From NCBI RefSeq assembly GCF_029894165.1, contig NZ_JARXXU010000001.1, positions 620,001 to 684,000 of the forward strand: a DNA stretch of 64,000 bases, written 5' to 3'. The position numbers and the translations under genes were made by a program. Under the pieces are notes generated by a model, which ran no database searches, had not been told where the DNA came from, and was given only the letters and a program-made list of their open reading frames with translations. Below are positions 40,385 to 48,970 of this stretch, one piece after another; positions within the stretch are counted from its first letter, which is position 1; each line of letters begins with the position of its first letter. Origin of the DNA: Aurantimicrobium minutum (lineage in GTDB: Bacteria > Actinomycetota > Actinomycetes > Actinomycetales > Microbacteriaceae).

Positions 40385-41579
40385 AGTTAGATTCACAGAA
40401 TTATTAGAAGATATCGTCGATAATCGTGGAAAATCTGTACCCACTTCAGAAACTGGCACTGCACTAATTGCAACCAATTGCATAAAAGAGGACTCGCTCT
40501 ATCCAACTTTTGAAAATGTTCGATTTGTTGATGACGAAAGGATGGAAACCTGGTTTAGGGGGCACCCGATTCCGGGAGACATTCTGTTTGTCTGTAAAGG
40601 ATCCCCCGGTCGTGTCGTCATGGTTCCCGAAGAAGTGAACTTTTGTATTGCTCAAGATATGGTTTCGCTTCGACCGGATGCAACATTGGTTTATCCGAAA
40701 TATCTATTTGCAGCTCTTCGTTCTAATCTCGTCCGAAAAAGAATCGAAAGCATGCATGTAGGTTCCTTGATTCCGCATTTCAAAAAAGGTGATTTTGATC
40801 AACTGATGATTCCTTTGCCAGAAATGAAAGTTCAGGTTTCTATTGGTGATCAGTATTTTGCCATTTCGGAAAGAATTCAATCAGGTATTTCTTCCATCAA
40901 CTTGCTAGAAAGACTCGGAGCTGCGCTCCTTGAACAATCAATGGCAAATGATGAATTAACAACTGACATTACGGTTGGGGATGTACTTGGAATTATGGAG
41001 ACTGGTTCTCGCCCCAAAGGAGGAGCTACTTCAAAAGGTGTAGTGAGCCTAGGAGCTGAATCAGTCAAGTCTGCAGGGATCACAGGAAATAGAGAAACTA
41101 AATTCGTTCCAGTTGAATTTGCATCCCAGATGAAACGGGGGCATCTTGCTGACGGGGATATTTTGGTTTACAAGGATGGGGCGGCTTTAAGTACCTCTAA
41201 CTCAATAGTGAGCGCATTTGGATTCGGATTCCCAACCAATGAAGCAGTTGTAAATGAACACGTCTTCAGGTTGCAGGGAAACGAGTTTGTATCTCAGGGG
41301 CTTCTTTATTGGCTACTACGTTCACCACGCATTGATGCTGAAATCAGGATGAGGGTAACTGGCGCTGCCCAACCAGGATTGAACTCCGAAAATCTGAGAT
41401 CGGTACCATTACCAAGCAAACTTCACGAATTAAAACGCGTTTTAGGTTCGCAGTTGGATCAAATGCTTGAGTTGATGTTGAAACTTGGTTCACAAAATAA
41501 CAAGTTGATTCTTCTTAGGGATTCCCTTTTAAATTTGCAAATTGCAGCACGCATTTCGAATAGAGGGGCCTCAATTTGA
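40377..41579 (+). CDS. hsdS: Type I restriction specificity subunit HsdS
   Basis: 400 residues from ATG 40377, which overlaps the hsdM stop. Two target-recognition domains (about 5-170 and 200-370) each end in a typical helix: SLIPHFKKGDFDQLMIPLP, and AAQPGLNSENLRSVPLPS, with coiled spacers (ISSINLLERLGAALLEQ). Such a subunit reads a bipartite DNA target. The sequence is AT-rich. The stop overlaps the hsdR start (TGATG at 41577-41581). Confidence 0.9.
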   Translation: MNEVRFTELLEDIVDNRGKSVPTSETGTALIATNCIKEDSLYPTFENVRFVDDERMETWFRGHPIPGDILFVCKGSPGRVVMVPEEVNFCIAQDMVSLRPDATLVYPKYLFAALRSNLVRKRIESMHVGSLIPHFKKGDFDQLMIPLPEMKVQVSIGDQYFAISERIQSGISSINLLERLGAALLEQSMANDELTTDITVGDVLGIMETGSRPKGGATSKGVVSLGAESVKSAGITGNRETKFVPVEFASQMKRGHLADGDILVYKDGAALSTSNSIVSAFGFGFPTNEAVVNEHVFRLQGNEFVSQGLLYWLLRSPRIDAEIRMRVTGAAQPGLNSENLRSVPLPSKLHELKRVLGSQLDQMLELMLKLGSQNNKLILLRDSLLNLQIAARISNRGASI

Positions 41580-44500
41580 TGCAGAATTTCAACGAATCCA
41601 CAATTGAGGATGCAGCTCTCGAGTATTTTCGTGAACTTGGCTTCCAAACTGTTTGGGGCCCTAACCTCGCTCCTGGCGAGCCTGGTGAAGAACGTTCTTC
41701 ATTTGACCAGGTGTTCTTGTCAGGCCGACTACGTGAAACTACTGTCCGCATCAATTCTTCATGCTCACCAGAGCTCATTGATGAGGCTCTCAAAAAGTTG
41801 GATCGCGCTGAGTCTCAGAATCCAATTGATGAGAACTATAGAGTTCACAAACTCATAACCGAAGGTGTTCCTGTTGAGCATCGTGGTGAAGACGGCCAGG
41901 TGCGCACCACGCGAGTTTGGCTAATTGATTTCGAGAATCCCGAACGTAATGACTGGGTGGCAATCAACCAGTTCACCATTATCGAAAACGGTAAAAACCG
42001 ACGACCTGATGTGATTGTGTTTCTCAACGGAATTCCGGTCGGTCTCCTTGAGCTCAAGAACTCTGCTGCTGAGCATGCAACATTGCGAAATGCCTGGAAT
42101 CAGGTTCAGACCTACCGCAAAGACATCGCTTCGCTCTTTGTGCCTAACGCCGTAACCGTCATCTCCGATGGCATCAGTTCTGCGATGAGTTCCTACACAG
42201 GAGCATTCGAGCACTATGCACCTTGGAAAACCATCGAGGGCCGTGAAGTTGTAAGTAACCTCCCTTCGCTTGAAGTACTCATCAAGGGTGTTTTTGAACC
42301 AGCTCGATTCCTTGATTTACTGCAGAACTTTGTAGTGTTCTCTGACGAAACGGTCACAGAACAAAGTTCTGGACAGCCCATTCGAACGTTGGTGAAGAGA
42401 GTTGCGAAATATCACCAGTATTGGGCCGTGAATGCAGCAATTGAGAGCACCGTTGAGGCTTCTGGCCCCAACGGGGACCGCCGGGGTGGTGTTGTGTGGC
42501 ACACACAAGGATCTGGGAAGAGTTTTGAGATGGTCTTCTATGCGGCCAAGATCATGCGTGATCCACGCATGAGTAATCCGACCCTGGTATTCATCACAGA
42601 CCGCAATGACCTCGATGATCAGCTCTTCGGAGAAACGTTTGCACCTGCGCGGATTTTGCCTGAGACTCCTGTTCAAGCAGAGACGCGTCAAGATCTGCGA
42701 AGCAAACTCAAGAGAGCTAGTGGCGGCATCGTTTTCTCCACTTTGCAGAAATTCAGACCTGGCGAAGATGGGGACGAAAACCCTGTACTGACAGATCGCC
42801 GAAATGTAATTGTGATTGCTGATGAGGCACACCGATCTCAATATGGTTTCAGTGAGTATTTGGATAGCAAAGGGCAGCTTCGTGCTGGCCTGGCCAAACA
42901 TCTTCGTGACGCATTGCCAGGTGCTACCTATCTGGGCTTCACAGGGACCCCCATCGAGAGCAACGATAAATCGACCCGCTCGGTCTTTGGTGATTACGTC
43001 GACGTCTACGACCTCACTCGCGCTGTTGAGGACGGCGCGACAGTCCGTATTTTCTTCGAACCCCGCTTGATCAAGGTTGAGCTCCCTGAAGATGAGCTTG
43101 AAAACCTCGATGAACTCGCAGATGAAATCACGGAGCAGGTTGAAGAAGATGCCGCAACTGCTGCGAAGTCGCGGTGGTCACGGCTGGAAGCAATCGTTGG
43201 TGCTGATGCGCGCCTTGATATTGAAGCAAAGTTCATTGTGGATAACTGGGAGAAACGTCGCGAGGCTGCCTTTGGTAAGGGCATGATCGTGGTGATGAGC
43301 CGCCGTATTGCGGTGAAACTTTACGAAAAGATTGTTGCCCTGCGACCGGAATGGCACTCTGATGACCCCACTCAGGGCAAAATCAAGGTTGTCATGACAG
43401 GCTCCGCTGCAGATCCTGCAGAGTTTCAGCCGCACATCCATGACAAGCAGACGCGACGCGAACTGAAGCTTCGAGCAAAGAACCCGGATGACTCGCTCGA
43501 ACTCGTGATTGTTCGAGACATGTGGCTCACTGGATTCGATGCCCCTTCCATGCACACCATGTATGTGGACAAGCCCATGCGCGGTGCGGGCCTGATGCAA
43601 GCAATTGCTCGCGTAAACAGAACCTTCCGAGACAAGTCCGGCGGTTTGATCATCGACCTCGTGGGAATTGCTACAAACTTGCGAGCTGCATTGGCGGAGT
43701 ACTCTCCAACAGATCAGGAACAAGCTGGCGTTCCCATTGAAGAGATCATTGCTGTGATGTTGGAGAAGCACGACATTATTCGTGGCTTGCTCCATGGGCT
43801 TGATTTCGACTCGAGTCCAAACCTCTCAGCTGCGCAACTCTTGGGGCAGCGTGCAAAAGTTCTGGACTTCGTCATGGCAGATCCTGACAGAACGTCCCGA
43901 TTCAATGACCAGGTGCTTGCCCTCCTCAAGGCTTTCATGCTTGCAGGTGCGCGCGATGAAGCAAATGTCATTCGTTCAGACATCCGACTCTTTGCCGATG
44001 TAAGAACCGCAATCTTGAAGATTCAGAATCCAGACTCTGGACGCGGTGGCTCTGGGGCAATTGAAATCGACACCGCCATCGGTCAGCTCGTCAATGAGGC
44101 AGTTTCAGCAGACCAGGTCATCGATATTTACGAGTTGGCAGGAATTGAGAAGCCTGAGTTGTCGATTCTCTCTGACGAATTTTTGGATTCGTTAGAACAC
44201 AAAGACAAACCCAACCTCCAGATGGGGCTATTGCGTCGTTTGCTCAATGATCAAATTAAGACGATATCCAAGACGAACCTTGTTCAGTCAAGGAAGTTCT
44301 CGGAACTCCTGGATGAGGCAATCAAGAAATACACCAACCGTTCCCTCACGACCGCAGAAATCATTGCTGAACTTGTAAAACTGGCCAAGGAATTGCGAGA
44401 TGAGCAGGCCAGGGGAGCGGAACTTGGTCTCGAAGATGACGAAGTCGCCTTCTATGACGCGGTGTTCCAAAACGACACCGCTGTTCTCAAACTTGGGGAT

Positions 44501-44707
44501 GAGACACTCAAAAAGATTGCCAGGGAGTTAGTCGTTGCGGTTCGTGAATCAGCAACAATCGACTGGAATCTCAAAGACAGCGTTCGAGCAGCTATGAGAT
44601 CAAAAGTACGCAGGCTGCTTGCCAAGTATGACTACCCACCAGATGCTGAAGAGATCGCGGTAGAGCTGGTGCTTGAGCAAGCAGAGCTTCTTGCTTCAAA
44701 CTCTTAA
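41579..44707 (+). CDS. hsdR: Type I restriction endonuclease/translocase HsdR
   Basis: A 1042-residue subunit. The N-terminal PD-(D/E)xK nuclease is visible (RRPDVIVFLNG then LLELKN), followed by two RecA-like motor domains: Walker A WHTQGSGKSFEM, DEAH box VIADEAHRSQYGF, motif III GFTGTPIE, motif VI AIARVNRTF. The C-terminal helical part binds HsdM. All motifs look intact, so the restriction arm appears functional. A TTG three bases upstream of the ATG is possible as start. Confidence 0.95.
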   Translation: MQNFNESTIEDAALEYFRELGFQTVWGPNLAPGEPGEERSSFDQVFLSGRLRETTVRINSSCSPELIDEALKKLDRAESQNPIDENYRVHKLITEGVPVEHRGEDGQVRTTRVWLIDFENPERNDWVAINQFTIIENGKNRRPDVIVFLNGIPVGLLELKNSAAEHATLRNAWNQVQTYRKDIASLFVPNAVTVISDGISSAMSSYTGAFEHYAPWKTIEGREVVSNLPSLEVLIKGVFEPARFLDLLQNFVVFSDETVTEQSSGQPIRTLVKRVAKYHQYWAVNAAIESTVEASGPNGDRRGGVVWHTQGSGKSFEMVFYAAKIMRDPRMSNPTLVFITDRNDLDDQLFGETFAPARILPETPVQAETRQDLRSKLKRASGGIVFSTLQKFRPGEDGDENPVLTDRRNVIVIADEAHRSQYGFSEYLDSKGQLRAGLAKHLRDALPGATYLGFTGTPIESNDKSTRSVFGDYVDVYDLTRAVEDGATVRIFFEPRLIKVELPEDELENLDELADEITEQVEEDAATAAKSRWSRLEAIVGADARLDIEAKFIVDNWEKRREAAFGKGMIVVMSRRIAVKLYEKIVALRPEWHSDDPTQGKIKVVMTGSAADPAEFQPHIHDKQTRRELKLRAKNPDDSLELVIVRDMWLTGFDAPSMHTMYVDKPMRGAGLMQAIARVNRTFRDKSGGLIIDLVGIATNLRAALAEYSPTDQEQAGVPIEEIIAVMLEKHDIIRGLLHGLDFDSSPNLSAAQLLGQRAKVLDFVMADPDRTSRFNDQVLALLKAFMLAGARDEANVIRSDIRLFADVRTAILKIQNPDSGRGGSGAIEIDTAIGQLVNEAVSADQVIDIYELAGIEKPELSILSDEFLDSLEHKDKPNLQMGLLRRLLNDQIKTISKTNLVQSRKFSELLDEAIKKYTNRSLTTAEIIAELVKLAKELRDEQARGAELGLEDDEVAFYDAVFQNDTAVLKLGDETLKKIARELVVAVRESATIDWNLKDSVRAAMRSKVRRLLAKYDYPPDAEEIAVELVLEQAELLASNS

Positions 44708-44708
44708 C

Positions 44709-46031
44709 TCATTGAGGAAGATTTCGCTCGTTCCATCTTCTTAATGATTCAGACACAAGACCTTGCTCTTTATGTTTTGAAGAAATTATGTCCACCTTTT
44801 TGGGCAGAGAATTATCCCTGGGGAATAGTTCATCTAATTGAAATTTTCCTTGCTGTAAGACTTCGAATCCCAATGTTTTCTCAGGCATTTTGTCTATTAA
44901 GAAATTAACTAACTCAAAAGTAGACCGGGCTGCTTTAATTGCTTTTTCTGCAGTAAGTTTTGAAAATTCAAGGCCATGAATTAACTTATTTCTTTCGTCA
45001 CGACAATCTTTCTGCCATCTGGTAACCAGCTGATTGGTGCTAATCCCAAGGGAACTTAAAACTAAATTCAAAACACCAGGATTACTATCTTCAACAGGTT
45101 TTCTATGCAGTGCCCGATTTTTTAGGATTGTGTCTGGGGAGTCACTGTAAAGCTCGACCCCGATTAGGCGGATAGTCAGTTCTGAAAAACGGTCAATAGT
45201 CAGTACCGCATTTGCAAAATTCCCTTCACAAATAAGGCGAAGAGTTTCAGGGATTAGTGCTGAAGTTTCTCGAAAGGCAGGGCTCAGTTTAGGAAGAGTT
45301 TCAGCTATTTCGCGGAATAGATCTAATGATTGCTTTTCTGTGATTAACCTCTTTGATAACCATCCACCCAGGTCTGAGGAATTGTTTGGAATTTCTATTC
45401 GACGAAAAGCTCTCTTCTCCGAAAAATCAAATTCGACACACCTCAGGTCCGCTGAAATAGAAGAAGAAGTGATCAAGTGAACGGAATGATCGTGTCTGAT
45501 AAATCCATAAGCGTTCAAAATGTCGTTGCAGTAATCAATTGCAGCTCTAAACATTTTTTTGATTGATAGAGATTCCTCAGTTTTTTCGAATTGCGAGGCG
45601 AAAACAAAAAAATGAGAAAGTCCTGCAAATGTCTTTTGGTTGCCACCGGCCGAGACTTCAGTAGCGAAATTCTTTGGCATCCAGCCGAGTGCCATATTCG
45701 AAGGAATGTCCAGTCGCAAGGCTAAATATTCTGGTGGCAGAGCAATCATTGAAGGAAATGTGAAAGAGAAAACAAAGCCCGATGTTGGAGCTTTTATCTG
45801 TTTAGAAAGCCCTAGGTATTCAATTTGGCTAGCAATTTTTTCAATCGCTCTCGTCGTAAATGTTGTCAGAATTTCCGGCGTTATTAGGTGAGAGATCGAA
45901 ACCGCTTGAGCATCCAGGGCAGAAGAAAAAATGACATTCTTCTCACCTGAAGGATGGAGCATATAGAAGTTAACACTGTCTAGATACAAGGGATCCGTAA
46001 AGTCTTCAAAACCTAAATGAAACGTGCTCAC
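44709..46031 (-). CDS. Island protein with HEPN-like RNxxxH motif
   Basis: A 440-residue soluble protein of AT-rich sequence, convergent with hsdR (1-bp gap). Most of it is unrecognised. The C-terminal helical region contains CRDERNKLIHGLEFSKLT, with R347 and H352 in the Rx4H spacing of HEPN nucleases, flanked by long helices (KAIKAARSTFELVNFLIDKM) as in Apea-like HEPN domains. Position beside a type I system suggests an accessory defence factor. The function is an inference from one motif. Confidence 0.5.
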   Translation of the reverse strand: MSTFHLGFEDFTDPLYLDSVNFYMLHPSGEKNVIFSSALDAQAVSISHLITPEILTTFTTRAIEKIASQIEYLGLSKQIKAPTSGFVFSFTFPSMIALPPEYLALRLDIPSNMALGWMPKNFATEVSAGGNQKTFAGLSHFFVFASQFEKTEESLSIKKMFRAAIDYCNDILNAYGFIRHDHSVHLITSSSISADLRCVEFDFSEKRAFRRIEIPNNSSDLGGWLSKRLITEKQSLDLFREIAETLPKLSPAFRETSALIPETLRLICEGNFANAVLTIDRFSELTIRLIGVELYSDSPDTILKNRALHRKPVEDSNPGVLNLVLSSLGISTNQLVTRWQKDCRDERNKLIHGLEFSKLTAEKAIKAARSTFELVNFLIDKMPEKTLGFEVLQQGKFQLDELFPRDNSLPKKVDIISSKHKEQGLVSESLRRWNERNLPQ

Positions 46032-46051
46032 ACATTCACTTTAGGTCAGTG

Positions 46052-46213
46052 CTACTTCTTGCCGCCAAAGAGCTTGGCAAAGAAACCGGGTTCTGCTTCG
46101 TGACCCTGGCAACGCTGGTTCTTGGGGATACCGCGCATGACCTGGTCTACGTGCTGACCGCAACCGGCCCAGGTTGCTTTGCCGCACTTACGGCAGGTGA
46201 CTTCTCTACACAT
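46052..46213 (-). CDS. Small Cys/His-rich protein under a CsoR/CstR-type operator
   Basis: A 53-residue ORF read directly: ATG 46213, TAG 46052-46054, with AGGAG upstream on the minus strand. It has C2, C7, C10, C18, H21, C35 and H38 (TCRKCG, AGCGQH, RCQGHE), enough for a compact metal site, and ends FFAKLFGGKK. Very similar small proteins occur across actinobacteria without assigned function, from memory. Its promoter (TATAAT at 46239-46244, minus strand) is overlapped by a perfect palindrome of the copper/persulfide repressor type, which hints at a role in metal or thiol stress. Confidence 0.75.
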   Translation of the reverse strand: MCREVTCRKCGKATWAGCGQHVDQVMRGIPKNQRCQGHEAEPGFFAKLFGGKK

Positions 46214-46241
46214 TCAGTGACTCCTAACGTCTGCATTTATT

Positions 46242-46257
46242 ATACCCCCGGGGGTAT
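46242..46257. promoter_or_regulatory. CsoR/CstR-type operator
   Basis: A perfect 16-bp palindrome ATACCCCC/GGGGGTAT. Its G/C-tract-with-AT-ends design is that of operators for the CsoR family (copper, formaldehyde or persulfide sensors). It overlaps the -10 and spacer of the minus-strand small gene and lies about 15 bp upstream of a likely -35 (TTTCAC 46272-46277; CATAAT 46295-46300) for the plus-strand HTH gene. Confidence 0.7.
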
Positions 46258-46322
46258 GTAAAGCGCATCCCTTTCACTCGAACACATTACATGCCATAAT
46301 TGTTCCGTTAGGAGGTAAAGTG

Positions 46323-47150
46323 ATGGCAGGAATTGCACTGTCTCGTGCGGCAGAAATGCTCGGCATTACCCCTAGGTATGCCCGTGAGCTGCTGAAGCAG
46401 GGAAAACTCATATCAATAGGCCACGGAGAGATCGATCCTCGATCACTCGACACCTTTCGCCAACTCCGTCTCCCAGCAGGTAGGCCTACGTCTCCAACCA
46501 ACGCCGCCGCACTCGCGGAGTTGTTGCGAGGACGAACACCTCAGATTCCTGCTCGCTCCCTTGCTCGTTTGCGAAATACAATTCGAAATGCTGGGCCGTG
46601 GGATCTCGCCCTCGATCTGCTCACTAGTTCAGATAAAGAACTTGCCCAACTGGCAGAATTAACTGTGAATCCAGAGTCCTTTCTGGAGGGGCGACGTGCT
46701 CAAGCGCAACTCAAAGAACTTCAACACGAGTGGATTCGGCGTAACCCAGCACGGCAGGGAGAATCACTGCCGCTTGCTCTCGTGGGGCTGAAAACGTCGG
46801 CCCAGGTGGCAAAACTCATCAAGTCCTCGACCGTTCCCGATGAGAGGCGGCGATTAGCCCTTGACCACATTGCGGATCTGTTGTCGACGAAACAGGAGAT
46901 TCTTCAGGCGCTCACTGCAGAACCGGCTAGGACCGGTTTTGCGGAGAGTGACGCCATTCTGGCCGCGGGAATCTCCTGGGCGGCGCGCGAGAAAGAGATT
47001 GCGGTGCCGGGATGGGTCACCATCACACCACTTCCCGAATTACTGTGGGCTGAACTGATGCCGGTCGCTGGCCAGCGGAATTCACAATGGATTCCGGAAT
47101 TTAGACACGCCAACATCTTCGCAGAGCCAGCTCACTTTGCGAGGGCATAA
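46323..47150 (+). CDS. HTH protein, putative antitoxin partner of a nucleotidyltransferase
   Basis: 275 residues from ATG 46323, set by AGGAGG seven bases upstream. An N-terminal helix-turn-helix or excisionase-like fold (ALSRAAEMLGITPRYARELL, then KQGKLISIG) is followed by a long helical region of unknown type. The nucleotidyltransferase gene starts two bases after the stop. HTH plus NTase pairs of this form (compare AbiEi/AbiEii) behave as toxin-antitoxin or abortive-infection modules, which is an inference here. Confidence 0.65.
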   Translation: MAGIALSRAAEMLGITPRYARELLKQGKLISIGHGEIDPRSLDTFRQLRLPAGRPTSPTNAAALAELLRGRTPQIPARSLARLRNTIRNAGPWDLALDLLTSSDKELAQLAELTVNPESFLEGRRAQAQLKELQHEWIRRNPARQGESLPLALVGLKTSAQVAKLIKSSTVPDERRRLALDHIADLLSTKQEILQALTAEPARTGFAESDAILAAGISWAAREKEIAVPGWVTITPLPELLWAELMPVAGQRNSQWIPEFRHANIFAEPAHFARA

Positions 47151-47152
47151 GC

Positions 47153-47698
47153 GTGGCTAGACCAGCAACCCTCGATTACGCAGCACTCATCGAACTTTTC
47201 ACCGCAATGGGTGAAGGTCTCGAGAGGAAACATGCCACGGCAACGGTGTATGTGTTTGGCGGGGCAGCAATGTTGATGCATGGCTTGCGCCGAGGAATGA
47301 CCGAGGACATTGATGTGTACTCGCTCAGGAGCGATTCACTGAGGGAAACAGTGGCCCAACTCACTGCAGAATACGATCTTGCTCCTGAGTGGGTCAGCAG
47401 CACAGGCTCTGGTTTTGTCCCGGGGCCAGGAACAGACGAATTAATCCAGGAGAAAGTTTTCGGTGGCTTAACCGTCCAGATAGCCTCGCCTAGAAATCTT
47501 CTTGCCCACAAACTCACCGCCCTGCGCCCCAAAGACCTGGACGATCTCCACGAGCTCATGAAGATCAATGAGATTTCACACTCTTCACAAGCTCTCGCCA
47601 TCGTCACTGAGCTCTATGACGAGGAAACGAATGTCCCGCAGATTAAGCTGGAGGATATTGAACGATGGGTCTCAGGCTGGCTTGCCCGTCATTCCTAG
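47153..47698 (+). CDS. DUF6036-type nucleotidyltransferase, putative toxin
   Basis: A 181-residue protein from GTG 47153. The nucleotidyltransferase core is visible: VYVFGGAAMLMHGLRRGMTE then DIDVYSL, i.e. a GG motif followed by the DxD metal pair, and a later NLLAHKLTALRPKDLDDL helix as in DUF6036/AbiEii-like enzymes. Such toxins transfer nucleotides to tRNA or proteins. Coupled to the HTH gene upstream. The base composition is closer to the core than to the AT-rich island. Confidence 0.72.
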   Translation: MARPATLDYAALIELFTAMGEGLERKHATATVYVFGGAAMLMHGLRRGMTEDIDVYSLRSDSLRETVAQLTAEYDLAPEWVSSTGSGFVPGPGTDELIQEKVFGGLTVQIASPRNLLAHKLTALRPKDLDDLHELMKINEISHSSQALAIVTELYDEETNVPQIKLEDIERWVSGWLARHS

Positions 47699-47725: not shown

Positions 47726-48970
47726 ATGACCGAACAGCGTGGCGCGAGAAACCTGACAGATCGCTCGCAGGAGCGCCCTCAGGTTCGCCCCACCGCAGAA
47801 GGCTGGAAGCAGAACGTCGATGCAGACGGTCGCCCCACGCTCCAATTCGAACAGCCCACGCGGGGAGCGAAGCCTCCCGTTCACCTGGCTGATCTCACAC
47901 CCGACGAGCGTAAAGCGAAAGTCACCGAGCTTGGTCTCCCTGCATTCCGCGCCAAGCAGATCAGCACGCACTATTTCTCCCACTACACGAGCGACCCCGA
48001 GAAGATGACCGACCTGCCTGCGGCAGGACGAGCAGAGCTCGTGGAGTCTTTGTTACCTCCGCTCATGACGGAGGTCAAGCGCCTGAGTACAGACAACGGG
48101 GACACCATCAAGTTCTTGTGGCGCTTGTTTGACGGTGCACTGGTGGAGTCCGTCCTGATGCGGTACCCCGGCCGCATCACGCTGTGTGTCTCATCCCAGG
48201 CGGGATGTGGCATGAACTGTCCGTTCTGCGCAACCGGCCAAGCTGGGTTGACACGAAACATGTCGGCGGCGGAAATCGTGGATCAGGTCGTCCGCGCGAA
48301 TGCTGTTATTGCTGCCGGTGAATTGGGTGGCAAACGTCGCAACGAAGGTAATCAGGATGCCGACGGCCAGCCTGAACGCGTGAACAACATTGTGTTCATG
48401 GGCATGGGGGAGCCACTGGCCAACTACAACCGCCTGATGACCTCGGTGCGCACTATGCTCGCTCCTCAGCCCGAGGGCCTGGGCATGTCAGCCCGTCACA
48501 TCACGGTGTCTTCGGTGGGTCTTGCCCCCGCGATACTCAAGCTCGCAGACGAAGGTCTGCAGCTCACCTTCGCCCTCTCTCTTCATGCGCCCGATGACGA
48601 ACTTCGCGATGAGCTGATTCCGGTGAACTCGCGCTGGAAGGTCGATGAGGCGCTGGATGCGGCCTATAACTATTACGAGAAAACAGGACGTCGCGTTTCG
48701 ATCGAATACGCCCTGATCAAGAACATGAATGACCATGCGTGGCGTGCTGATTTGCTCGCTGACAAGCTCAATGAGCGTGGTCGTGGTTGGGTGCACGTCA
48801 ATCCCATTCCATTGAACCCCACCCCCGGATCTATCTGGACGGCGTCGGAACCTTCTATCACCCGCGAATTCGTGCGCAGGCTCGAAGAGCGTGGAATTCC
48901 GACCACCCTGCGCGATACCCGAGGCAAAGAAATCGATGGCGCCTGCGGCCAGCTCGCCGCAGCGGATTAG
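47726..48970 (+). CDS. rlmN: Dual-specificity RNA methyltransferase RlmN
   Basis: A 414-residue radical-SAM enzyme that methylates C2 of A2503 in 23S rRNA and A37 in some tRNAs. The cluster motif is [12 protein letters not shown] (Cx3Cx2C). [13 protein letters not shown] and the C-terminal catalytic Cys region ([16 protein letters not shown]) are present. There is a charged N-terminal extension of about 50 residues and a small insertion ([14 protein letters not shown]) often seen in Microbacteriaceae. Confidence 0.95.

Follow-up and report, generated by a model that had tools for sequence, protein, structure and literature searches.

A 16-bp palindrome, ATACCCCCGGGGGTAT, very probably serves as operator for a CstR-type repressor that senses sulfane sulfur, regulates a small gene and is encoded elsewhere in the genome, at C1:1118626-1118898. 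The small gene lies in the window, the whole 64-kb stretch of DNA analysed here (C1:620001-684000). Comparisons among relatives leave its predicted regulation by a CstR-type sensor well supported. The operator, its conservation, the type of the regulator, the regulon and the gene neighbourhood were all established computationally.

The mechanism proposed is modelled on ScCsoR (SCO0620) of S. coelicolor. The reduced CstR-type repressor would sit on the operator, cover the edge of the -10 element and block the promoter of the small gene. When persulfide builds up, the repressor's two cysteines would be modified or crosslinked and the repressor would leave the DNA. The small protein would then be made together with a CoA-disulfide-reductase/rhodanese fusion (CoADR-rhodanese, CoADR-Rhd), a rhodanese lipoprotein, thioredoxin, cytochrome bd and other members of the regulon. 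Both this DNA binding and the response to persulfide are inferred, as are the metal and the sulfur transfer considered below for the small protein.

ScCsoR binds ATACCn6GGTAT, senses sulfane sulfur and loses its binding on modification of Cys37 (PMC7533328). The present system resembles it in its 16-bp ATACC-N6-GGTAT operator and in a CsoR-family repressor with two sensing cysteines. The targets of ScCsoR are genes for a rhodanese, a persulfide dioxygenase and a sulfite transporter, with four genes forming one circuit; the available part of that report makes no mention of a small Cys/His protein in the circuit (PMC7533328).

Features of the window near the small gene are as follows.

41576-44707: type I restriction gene HsdR
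44709-46031: 440-aa ORF with no family match
46052..46213, minus strand: gene of the 53-aa small protein, an ORF with an ATG start; core MC-x4-C-x2-C-x4-W-x-GCG-x-H-x13-C-x2-H, tail GFFAKLFGGKK
46239..46244, minus strand: TATAAT -10 element overlapping the operator, read from the sequence
46242..46257, no strand: operator ATACCCCCGGGGGTAT, predicted site of a CstR-type repressor, from the palindrome match and its conservation in sister species and homologs
46320..47150, plus strand: divergent 276-aa ORF, first of the AbiE-like pair
46320-47698: AbiE-like pair; the second gene matches DUF6036/AbiEii, the first has no match
47726..48970, plus strand: rlmN-like gene, Pfam Radical_SAM, with RlmN_N just below the cut-off

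The operator before the small gene

The original prediction described a 16-bp palindrome overlapping a minus-strand TATAAT, and took it for an operator of CsoR/CstR type in front of a small protein conserved among actinobacteria. The palindrome is perfect, and the TATAAT, also perfect and running from 46244 to 46239, shares three bases with it; the regulatory part of the claim finds strong support in comparative genomics. The exact sequence occurs once in the window. At up to three mismatches there are two matches against 0.10 expected, and none of 100 shuffles reaches two. The minus strand around the start of the small gene reads TACATACCCCCGGGGGTATAATAAATGCAGACGTTAGGAGTCACTGAATG, with AGGAG 5' of the ATG. 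A sigma-70 scan of 45950-46420 gives no good -35 for the promoter of the small gene.

Evidence for the strand served by the operator can be found in the homologs. Operator sites before them number 62, from 59 homolog loci with near-identical sister species among them. A T three bases past the right TAT, giving TATNNT, is present at 49 of the 62, and the mirrored A at 19. Because of this excess, the operator is, on sequence grounds, built into the -10 element on the strand of the small gene.

In seven sister species, 27-28 bp separate the operator from the start codon of the small gene that follows it. Among the relatives, 30 loci were compared, with this one and the seven sister species included (30 of the 31 genomes that have the protein, G012 being left out). 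At least 11 of the 12 half-site bases occur within 250 bp upstream at 23 of these loci, 21 of them perfect, and at 7 there is no such site. Outside the genus, the operator is found within the same distance at 15 of 22 relatives' loci.

A wider set consists of named loci, the best 80 of at least 590 confirmed homolog loci. The operator lies within 250 bp at 37 of the 80 (35 perfect) and at none of the other 43; random stretches of the same loci contain it in 29 of 1258 cases, some of which are likely to be real sites. A regulator gene is present in the flanks of 46 of these best 80 loci, 33 of which have no operator; another ORF set puts the number with a regulator at 45. Operator and regulator occur together at 13 loci, at least one of the two at 70, and neither, on strict criteria, at 10. 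The link between the small protein and a CstR-like regulator extends over many families of actinobacteria, and the protein is an easy target for genetics.

At three of the ten loci with neither (L109, L123 and L160), a palindrome of 15 bp, shorter by one base, lies 26-91 bp before the start and is possibly a spacing variant of the operator. At four genomes from distant lineages, G137, G147, G158 and G190 (L247, L254, L255 and L252), the operator shares two bases with the ATG of the small gene. There, either the mRNA would have no leader, or the promoter would lie upstream of the operator.

The regulator and its regulon

The genome, 99.9% complete, contains one match to PF02583, at C1:1118647-1118883, outside the window; within the 64-kb window itself this profile finds no CsoR-family gene. 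The original prediction was thus right that no csoR or cstR gene is adjacent. It had also proposed looking through the genome for a CsoR-family gene and for further copies of the palindrome, and the search returned this one regulator and seven more palindromes at two mismatches or fewer.

The regulator (C1:1118626-1118898) has 90 aa and scores 76.4 bits against PF02583 (DUF156/CsoR), with a cut-off of 22.8. Its gene lies directly 3' of the CoADR-rhodanese gene (Pyr_redox_2 and Rhodanese domains), and an operator precedes that gene. The sensing-site motif, CRTVVTQLSAVSGAIDKAGFAIIAKAMQEC, keeps both cysteines and has Ala four residues ahead of the second. In M. tuberculosis CsoR (2HH7) a His aligns with this Ala, and this His is presumably a copper ligand. 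The features expected of a copper CsoR are absent: the regulator has no Cys-His-Cys Cu(I) site, and neither a Cu-ATPase nor a copper gene is its neighbour. With both sensor cysteines, Ala at the position of the copper-ligand His and a CoADR/rhodanese gene directly 5', the regulator is classed as CstR-like, predicted to respond to persulfide, and not as a copper CsoR.

Among solved structures, the best match of the regulator is 7mq3, deposited as csoR, at 36.4 bits, barely above InrS at 36.1; 2HH7 scores 31.8. In the aligned stretch, 7mq1 and 7mq2 differ from 7mq3 at one residue, and 7MQ2 is labelled CstR in the part available of a review (PMC9774590). Sensors of the DUF156 family are described, in the accessible part of another source, as having one conserved Cys in common, with the other effector-site residues varying (PMC5016687).

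In a tree of 115 rows, built from few columns and carrying a warning that joins of long branches may be false, a branch with support 97/95 separates the regulator and 57 of 57 rows from small-protein loci from 30 His-type rows. On the regulator's side are also five copies from sister species and 13 other lower-score rows. A partial row for S. pneumoniae CstR falls on the opposite side, on a long branch.

The 1.63-Mb genome contains the palindrome at 8 places with up to two mismatches and at 12 places with up to three, against 2 for a reversed control. The strict form, ATACCC-N4-GGGTAT, occurs at seven places and its reversed control at none. One of the seven precedes the regulator's own operon, and binding of the regulator to them is predicted. 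The strict sites, followed by one site with a single mismatch, are these.

407606: before the rhodanese lipoprotein gene
602573: before a short paralog of the small gene, then a P-type ATPase
666242: before the small gene
1087449: before a DUF2202 gene
1088573: before the thioredoxin gene
1116950: before the CoADR-Rhd/regulator pair
C1:1493452 (L019): 53 bp before cydA
C1:893058 (L016), one mismatch: before an MFS transporter gene, whose earliest possible start codon is about 11 bp away

A strict palindrome also precedes cydA in the sister species G006 (L198), which suggests CstR-type control of the cytochrome bd oxidase. Across six sister species and 20 stretches, 23 of 23 strict sites precede the same genes at nearly equal offsets; this set is without G001, without one G007 site (before its short paralog by coordinates) and without the sites of the 53-aa gene.

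Systems of this kind are known from other bacteria. CstR of S. aureus (PMC5480029) and the CstR/CoAPR system of E. faecalis (PMC9405070) likewise use a dithiol persulfide sensor of the CsoR family, and their targets are rhodanese and CoA-persulfide-reductase genes, as here. The available parts of these reports name no small protein of the present kind for either CstR (PMC5480029, PMC9405070). They differ in extent: S. aureus CstR is described there as likely controlling one operon directly (PMC5480029), whereas here the strict site before the small gene is joined by six others in the genome. The predicted regulon joins cytochrome bd and thioredoxin to one sensor and would be wider than that proposed single operon. 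A precedent for a dispersed network can be found in Thermus TTHA1953, a CstR-like regulator whose targets in sulfur metabolism are scattered, and which differs in its motif, TACNNTACNNNNGTANNGTA, and in its Sox-pathway targets, according to the part of the source available (PMC10318464). The accessible text of a study of the Firmicutes CsoR motif in gut metagenomes mentions neither sulfur, persulfide, rhodanese nor a small protein (PMC4938975).

The small protein and its neighbours

The ORF at 46052-46213 agrees with the original prediction of 53 residues with five Cys and two His. These are Cys 2, 7, 10, 18 and 35 and His 21 and 38, which is seven Cys/His within 38 residues. In alignments of 24 and of 64 sequences, M1, C2, C7, C10, W15, G17, C18, G19, H21 and C35 are invariant; the set of 64 was retrieved by the pattern TWxGCGxH, so that the invariance of those columns is partly by construction. 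In the distant homolog L252, Phe replaces the Trp. The family has two forms. After C35, the long form has C-x-G-H and then a GFFARLFGR-like tail, and the short form has C-x-C. The conserved GFFA[KR]LFG-like tail (46055-46087 in the window) follows a variable linker and is found in the long form only. It is perhaps a docking or membrane-touching motif.

The protein has no match in Pfam, in NCBIfam or among the sequences of solved structures in the PDB. In an AF2 model, with a mean pLDDT of 73, a helix accompanies two short strands; C7/C10 lie between the strands, and C18/H21 where the helix begins. This arrangement resembles that of small zinc-binding knuckles. Assigning a function from the fold was tried and given up: Foldseek returned no match at E <= 0.001, a weak test at this pLDDT. 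Methionine before cysteine is normally removed by methionine aminopeptidase. C2 may therefore be N-terminal in the mature protein.

The neighbourhood of the family was surveyed with homologs of single query proteins at E <= 1e-8 in flanks of up to about 5 kb. These targeted searches took the place of all-against-all BLAST clustering of neighbours, in which antisense ORFs of the high-GC DNA blurred the picture. In the best 80 of at least 590 loci, rhodanese is found at 49 (a query that also matches the rhodanese domains of fusions and so overlaps CoADR-Rhd), CstR at 46, CoADR-Rhd at 36, the rhodanese lipoprotein at 21, a persulfide-dioxygenase-like (PDO-like) gene at 18, thioredoxin at 17 and TauE at 15. 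P-type ATPase and multicopper oxidase follow at 5 each, the ATPase query being silent on metal specificity; DsrE and DUF2202 are at 4 each and DUF302 at 3. Within 1.6 kb, the counts for the same best 80 are 30 for CoADR-Rhd, 28 for CstR, 11 each for PDO-like and TauE-like genes, and 2 for P-type ATPase.

A sulfur gene or CstR is present at 58 of these best 80 loci, or 55 when CstR is not counted. At 22 of the 80 there is neither a sulfur gene or CstR nor a metal gene; 17 of the 22 have the operator, and the other five (L109, L123, L160, L182 and L187) are among the ten that lack both operator and regulator.

Four plasmid records in which the small gene carries no annotated feature have neighbours in varying sets, drawn from rhodanese, TauE, thioredoxin, DsrE, MBL-fold and FAD-oxidoreductase genes; a 'metal-sensitive transcriptional regulator' is near the gene in three of the four. 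Of 40 plasmid matches to the small gene that were listed, 38 have no annotated feature under them, in a gene table that is incomplete. A homolog with 64% identity in MT835623.1 (19139-19297, L263), labelled 'Bacteriophage sp.', was not taken as carriage by a phage. That record is an unverified, unannotated scaffold from faeces and is perhaps bacterial.

What the protein might do can be proposed from its residues and its neighbours. In the likeliest, though still tentative, model, C7, C10, C18 and H21 would hold a mini-domain together, probably through zinc, and C2 and C35 would take up sulfane sulfur and pass it to the rhodanese, CoADR and thioredoxin enzymes. More speculatively still, the whole actinobacterial family of about 37-65 residues, which is widespread and for the most part unannotated, could be a dedicated carrier or buffer of sulfane sulfur in the persulfide response. 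With a zinc-held Cys/His mini-domain and a free N-terminal Cys thiol, it would shuttle sulfur between persulfidated thiols and the CstR-controlled rhodanese and CoADR enzymes.

Alternatively, the small protein may belong to the CstR-type regulon and act on metal. It would bind an ion such as Zn(II) or Cu(I), one that persulfide stress frees or renders toxic, or deliver it, for instance to the P-type ATPase behind the short paralog. The seven Cys/His, mostly conserved, would suit such a role. The short paralog lies just 5' of an E1-E2 ATPase in this genome and in G006 and G004, but no ATPase was detected in about 0.8 kb downstream of it in G003, G005 and G002. Homologs of P-type ATPase, CopC or multicopper oxidase occur at 9 of the best 80 of at least 590 loci, yet at none of the nine without a sulfur gene or regulator beside them, against the 58 loci with either. 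A role in metal handling is rather unlikely.

A role in sulfur would place the protein among the components of sulfide and persulfide defence. It was not recognised in the open-licence literature, by conserved peptide strings or by topic, and is likely to be an unrecognised part of that defence, which would add a component to a system whose kind is already familiar. Most of what is known about persulfide homeostasis concerns larger enzymes and the sensors that control them, and the tiny protein would be a concrete new player.

Distribution across genomes and the divergent genes

The palindrome and the small protein tend to occur together. In 60 genomes, this one and 59 relatives, the protein is found in 31, the strict palindrome in 31 and both in 29 (Fisher p 2.8e-12, kinship ignored). 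The protein occurs without the palindrome in G012, which has no CsoR-family match, and in G049; the palindrome occurs without the protein in G014 and G059. The reversed control of the strict palindrome is absent from each of the 60.

In a phylum-wide sample of 246 genomes the link is weaker. The protein is found in 28, counting a probably spurious match in G282 (L256) that is interrupted by a stop; 69 genomes have the palindrome. The palindrome is present in 17 of the 28 genomes with the protein and in 52 of the 218 without it (p 1.7e-4). The reversed control occurs in 13 of the 246, and thus some of the phylum-wide palindromes are there by chance. The operator lies within 300 bp at 10 of 30 phylum-wide loci fetched.

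Matches to PF02583 fall into two score classes, split at 95 bits by eye. All 31 genomes with the palindrome are among the 38 that have a lower-score match. The strict palindrome is found in 0 of 19 genomes whose matches all belong to the high-score class, and in 0 of 3 with no PF02583 match. In the high-score class, His is present at 30 of 30 loci read, and 17 of the 19 high-score-only genomes were read, all with His. The lower-score matches read, out of 40, comprise a set of 20, five from sister species, the present one and seven in small-protein loci, partly overlapping. In the set of 20, 13 have a residue other than His at the position, namely Gly in 9, Ala in 3 and Thr in 1; His is present in a single one, and 6 fall outside the motif. 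G052 is an exception, with palindromes present and His in the lower-score regulator read there. Of seven lower-score genomes without the palindrome, G015, G016, G035 and G036 have a different type of regulator, G050 has a CstR-like one, and G032 and G055 are unread.

A third type of CsoR-family protein can be seen in relatives from the same family (L210, L219, L220, L222, L226 and L227), with ENHL[RK]THV in place of the second Cys. It forms a separate clade with support 100/98; the motif is seen in five of the six, and L220 is placed by the tree. The motif was seen in three of the genomes G015, G016, G035 and G036, with G036 placed by the tree.

MymT is a copper metallothionein of about 53 aa, rich in Cys and controlled by RicR, a CsoR paralog; its sequence presumably differs from that of the small protein. 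By analogy with this mycobacterial pair, the operator could belong to a copper-sensing CsoR and the gene behind it could encode a copper-stress protein; the protein is indeed small and Cys-rich. The operators of CsoR and RicR are similar in form, as far as the available parts of the sources go (PMC7533328, PMC10318464). M. tuberculosis CsoR and the copper-type class share PF02583 and this operator form with the present regulator, but the former has His at the copper-ligand position and the latter has P-type ATPase neighbours, in contrast to Ala and a CoADR-rhodanese neighbour here. Within 1.6 kb of 30 copper-type loci, P-type ATPase is found at 24, and the remaining 13 queries have no match at any of the loci. 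At named small-protein loci, from the best 80 of at least 590, 50 of 50 regulators have a residue other than His, with Ala in 29, Gly in 13, Ser in 7 and Thr in 1. Copper regulation is very improbable. It is rejected as the main reading on two grounds: the single regulator of the genome is without the His ligand, and the strict palindrome goes with the lower-score class, not with the copper class. The original prediction had left copper, persulfide or formaldehyde open as the signal. Of these, persulfide is clearly favoured: the regulator has Ala, the regulon consists of sulfur and redox genes, and the strict palindrome is absent from the high-score-only genomes.

The palindrome also lies in the intergenic region shared with the divergent AbiE-like operon (46320-47698), and the one promoter-like site of the sigma-70 scan, on the plus strand at 46273-46300, faces that operon; even so, the palindrome is most improbable as the operon's own operator and not the small gene's, since the sister species keep it at this locus without the AbiE-like genes, and the -10 overlap favours the strand of the small gene. 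In this genome the AbiE-like pair separates the small gene from the rlmN-like gene. At seven sister-species loci (L020 and L022-L027, about 1.5 kb on each side), the rlmN-like gene is divergent, the AbiE-like pair is absent and the operator is kept. On the simplest reading of this arrangement, operator and small gene were already a unit when the AbiE-like genes arrived next to them. A match to HsdR is found also at L027 (G004), and it looks as if defence genes were inserted on both sides of the small gene (41576-47698 in the window).
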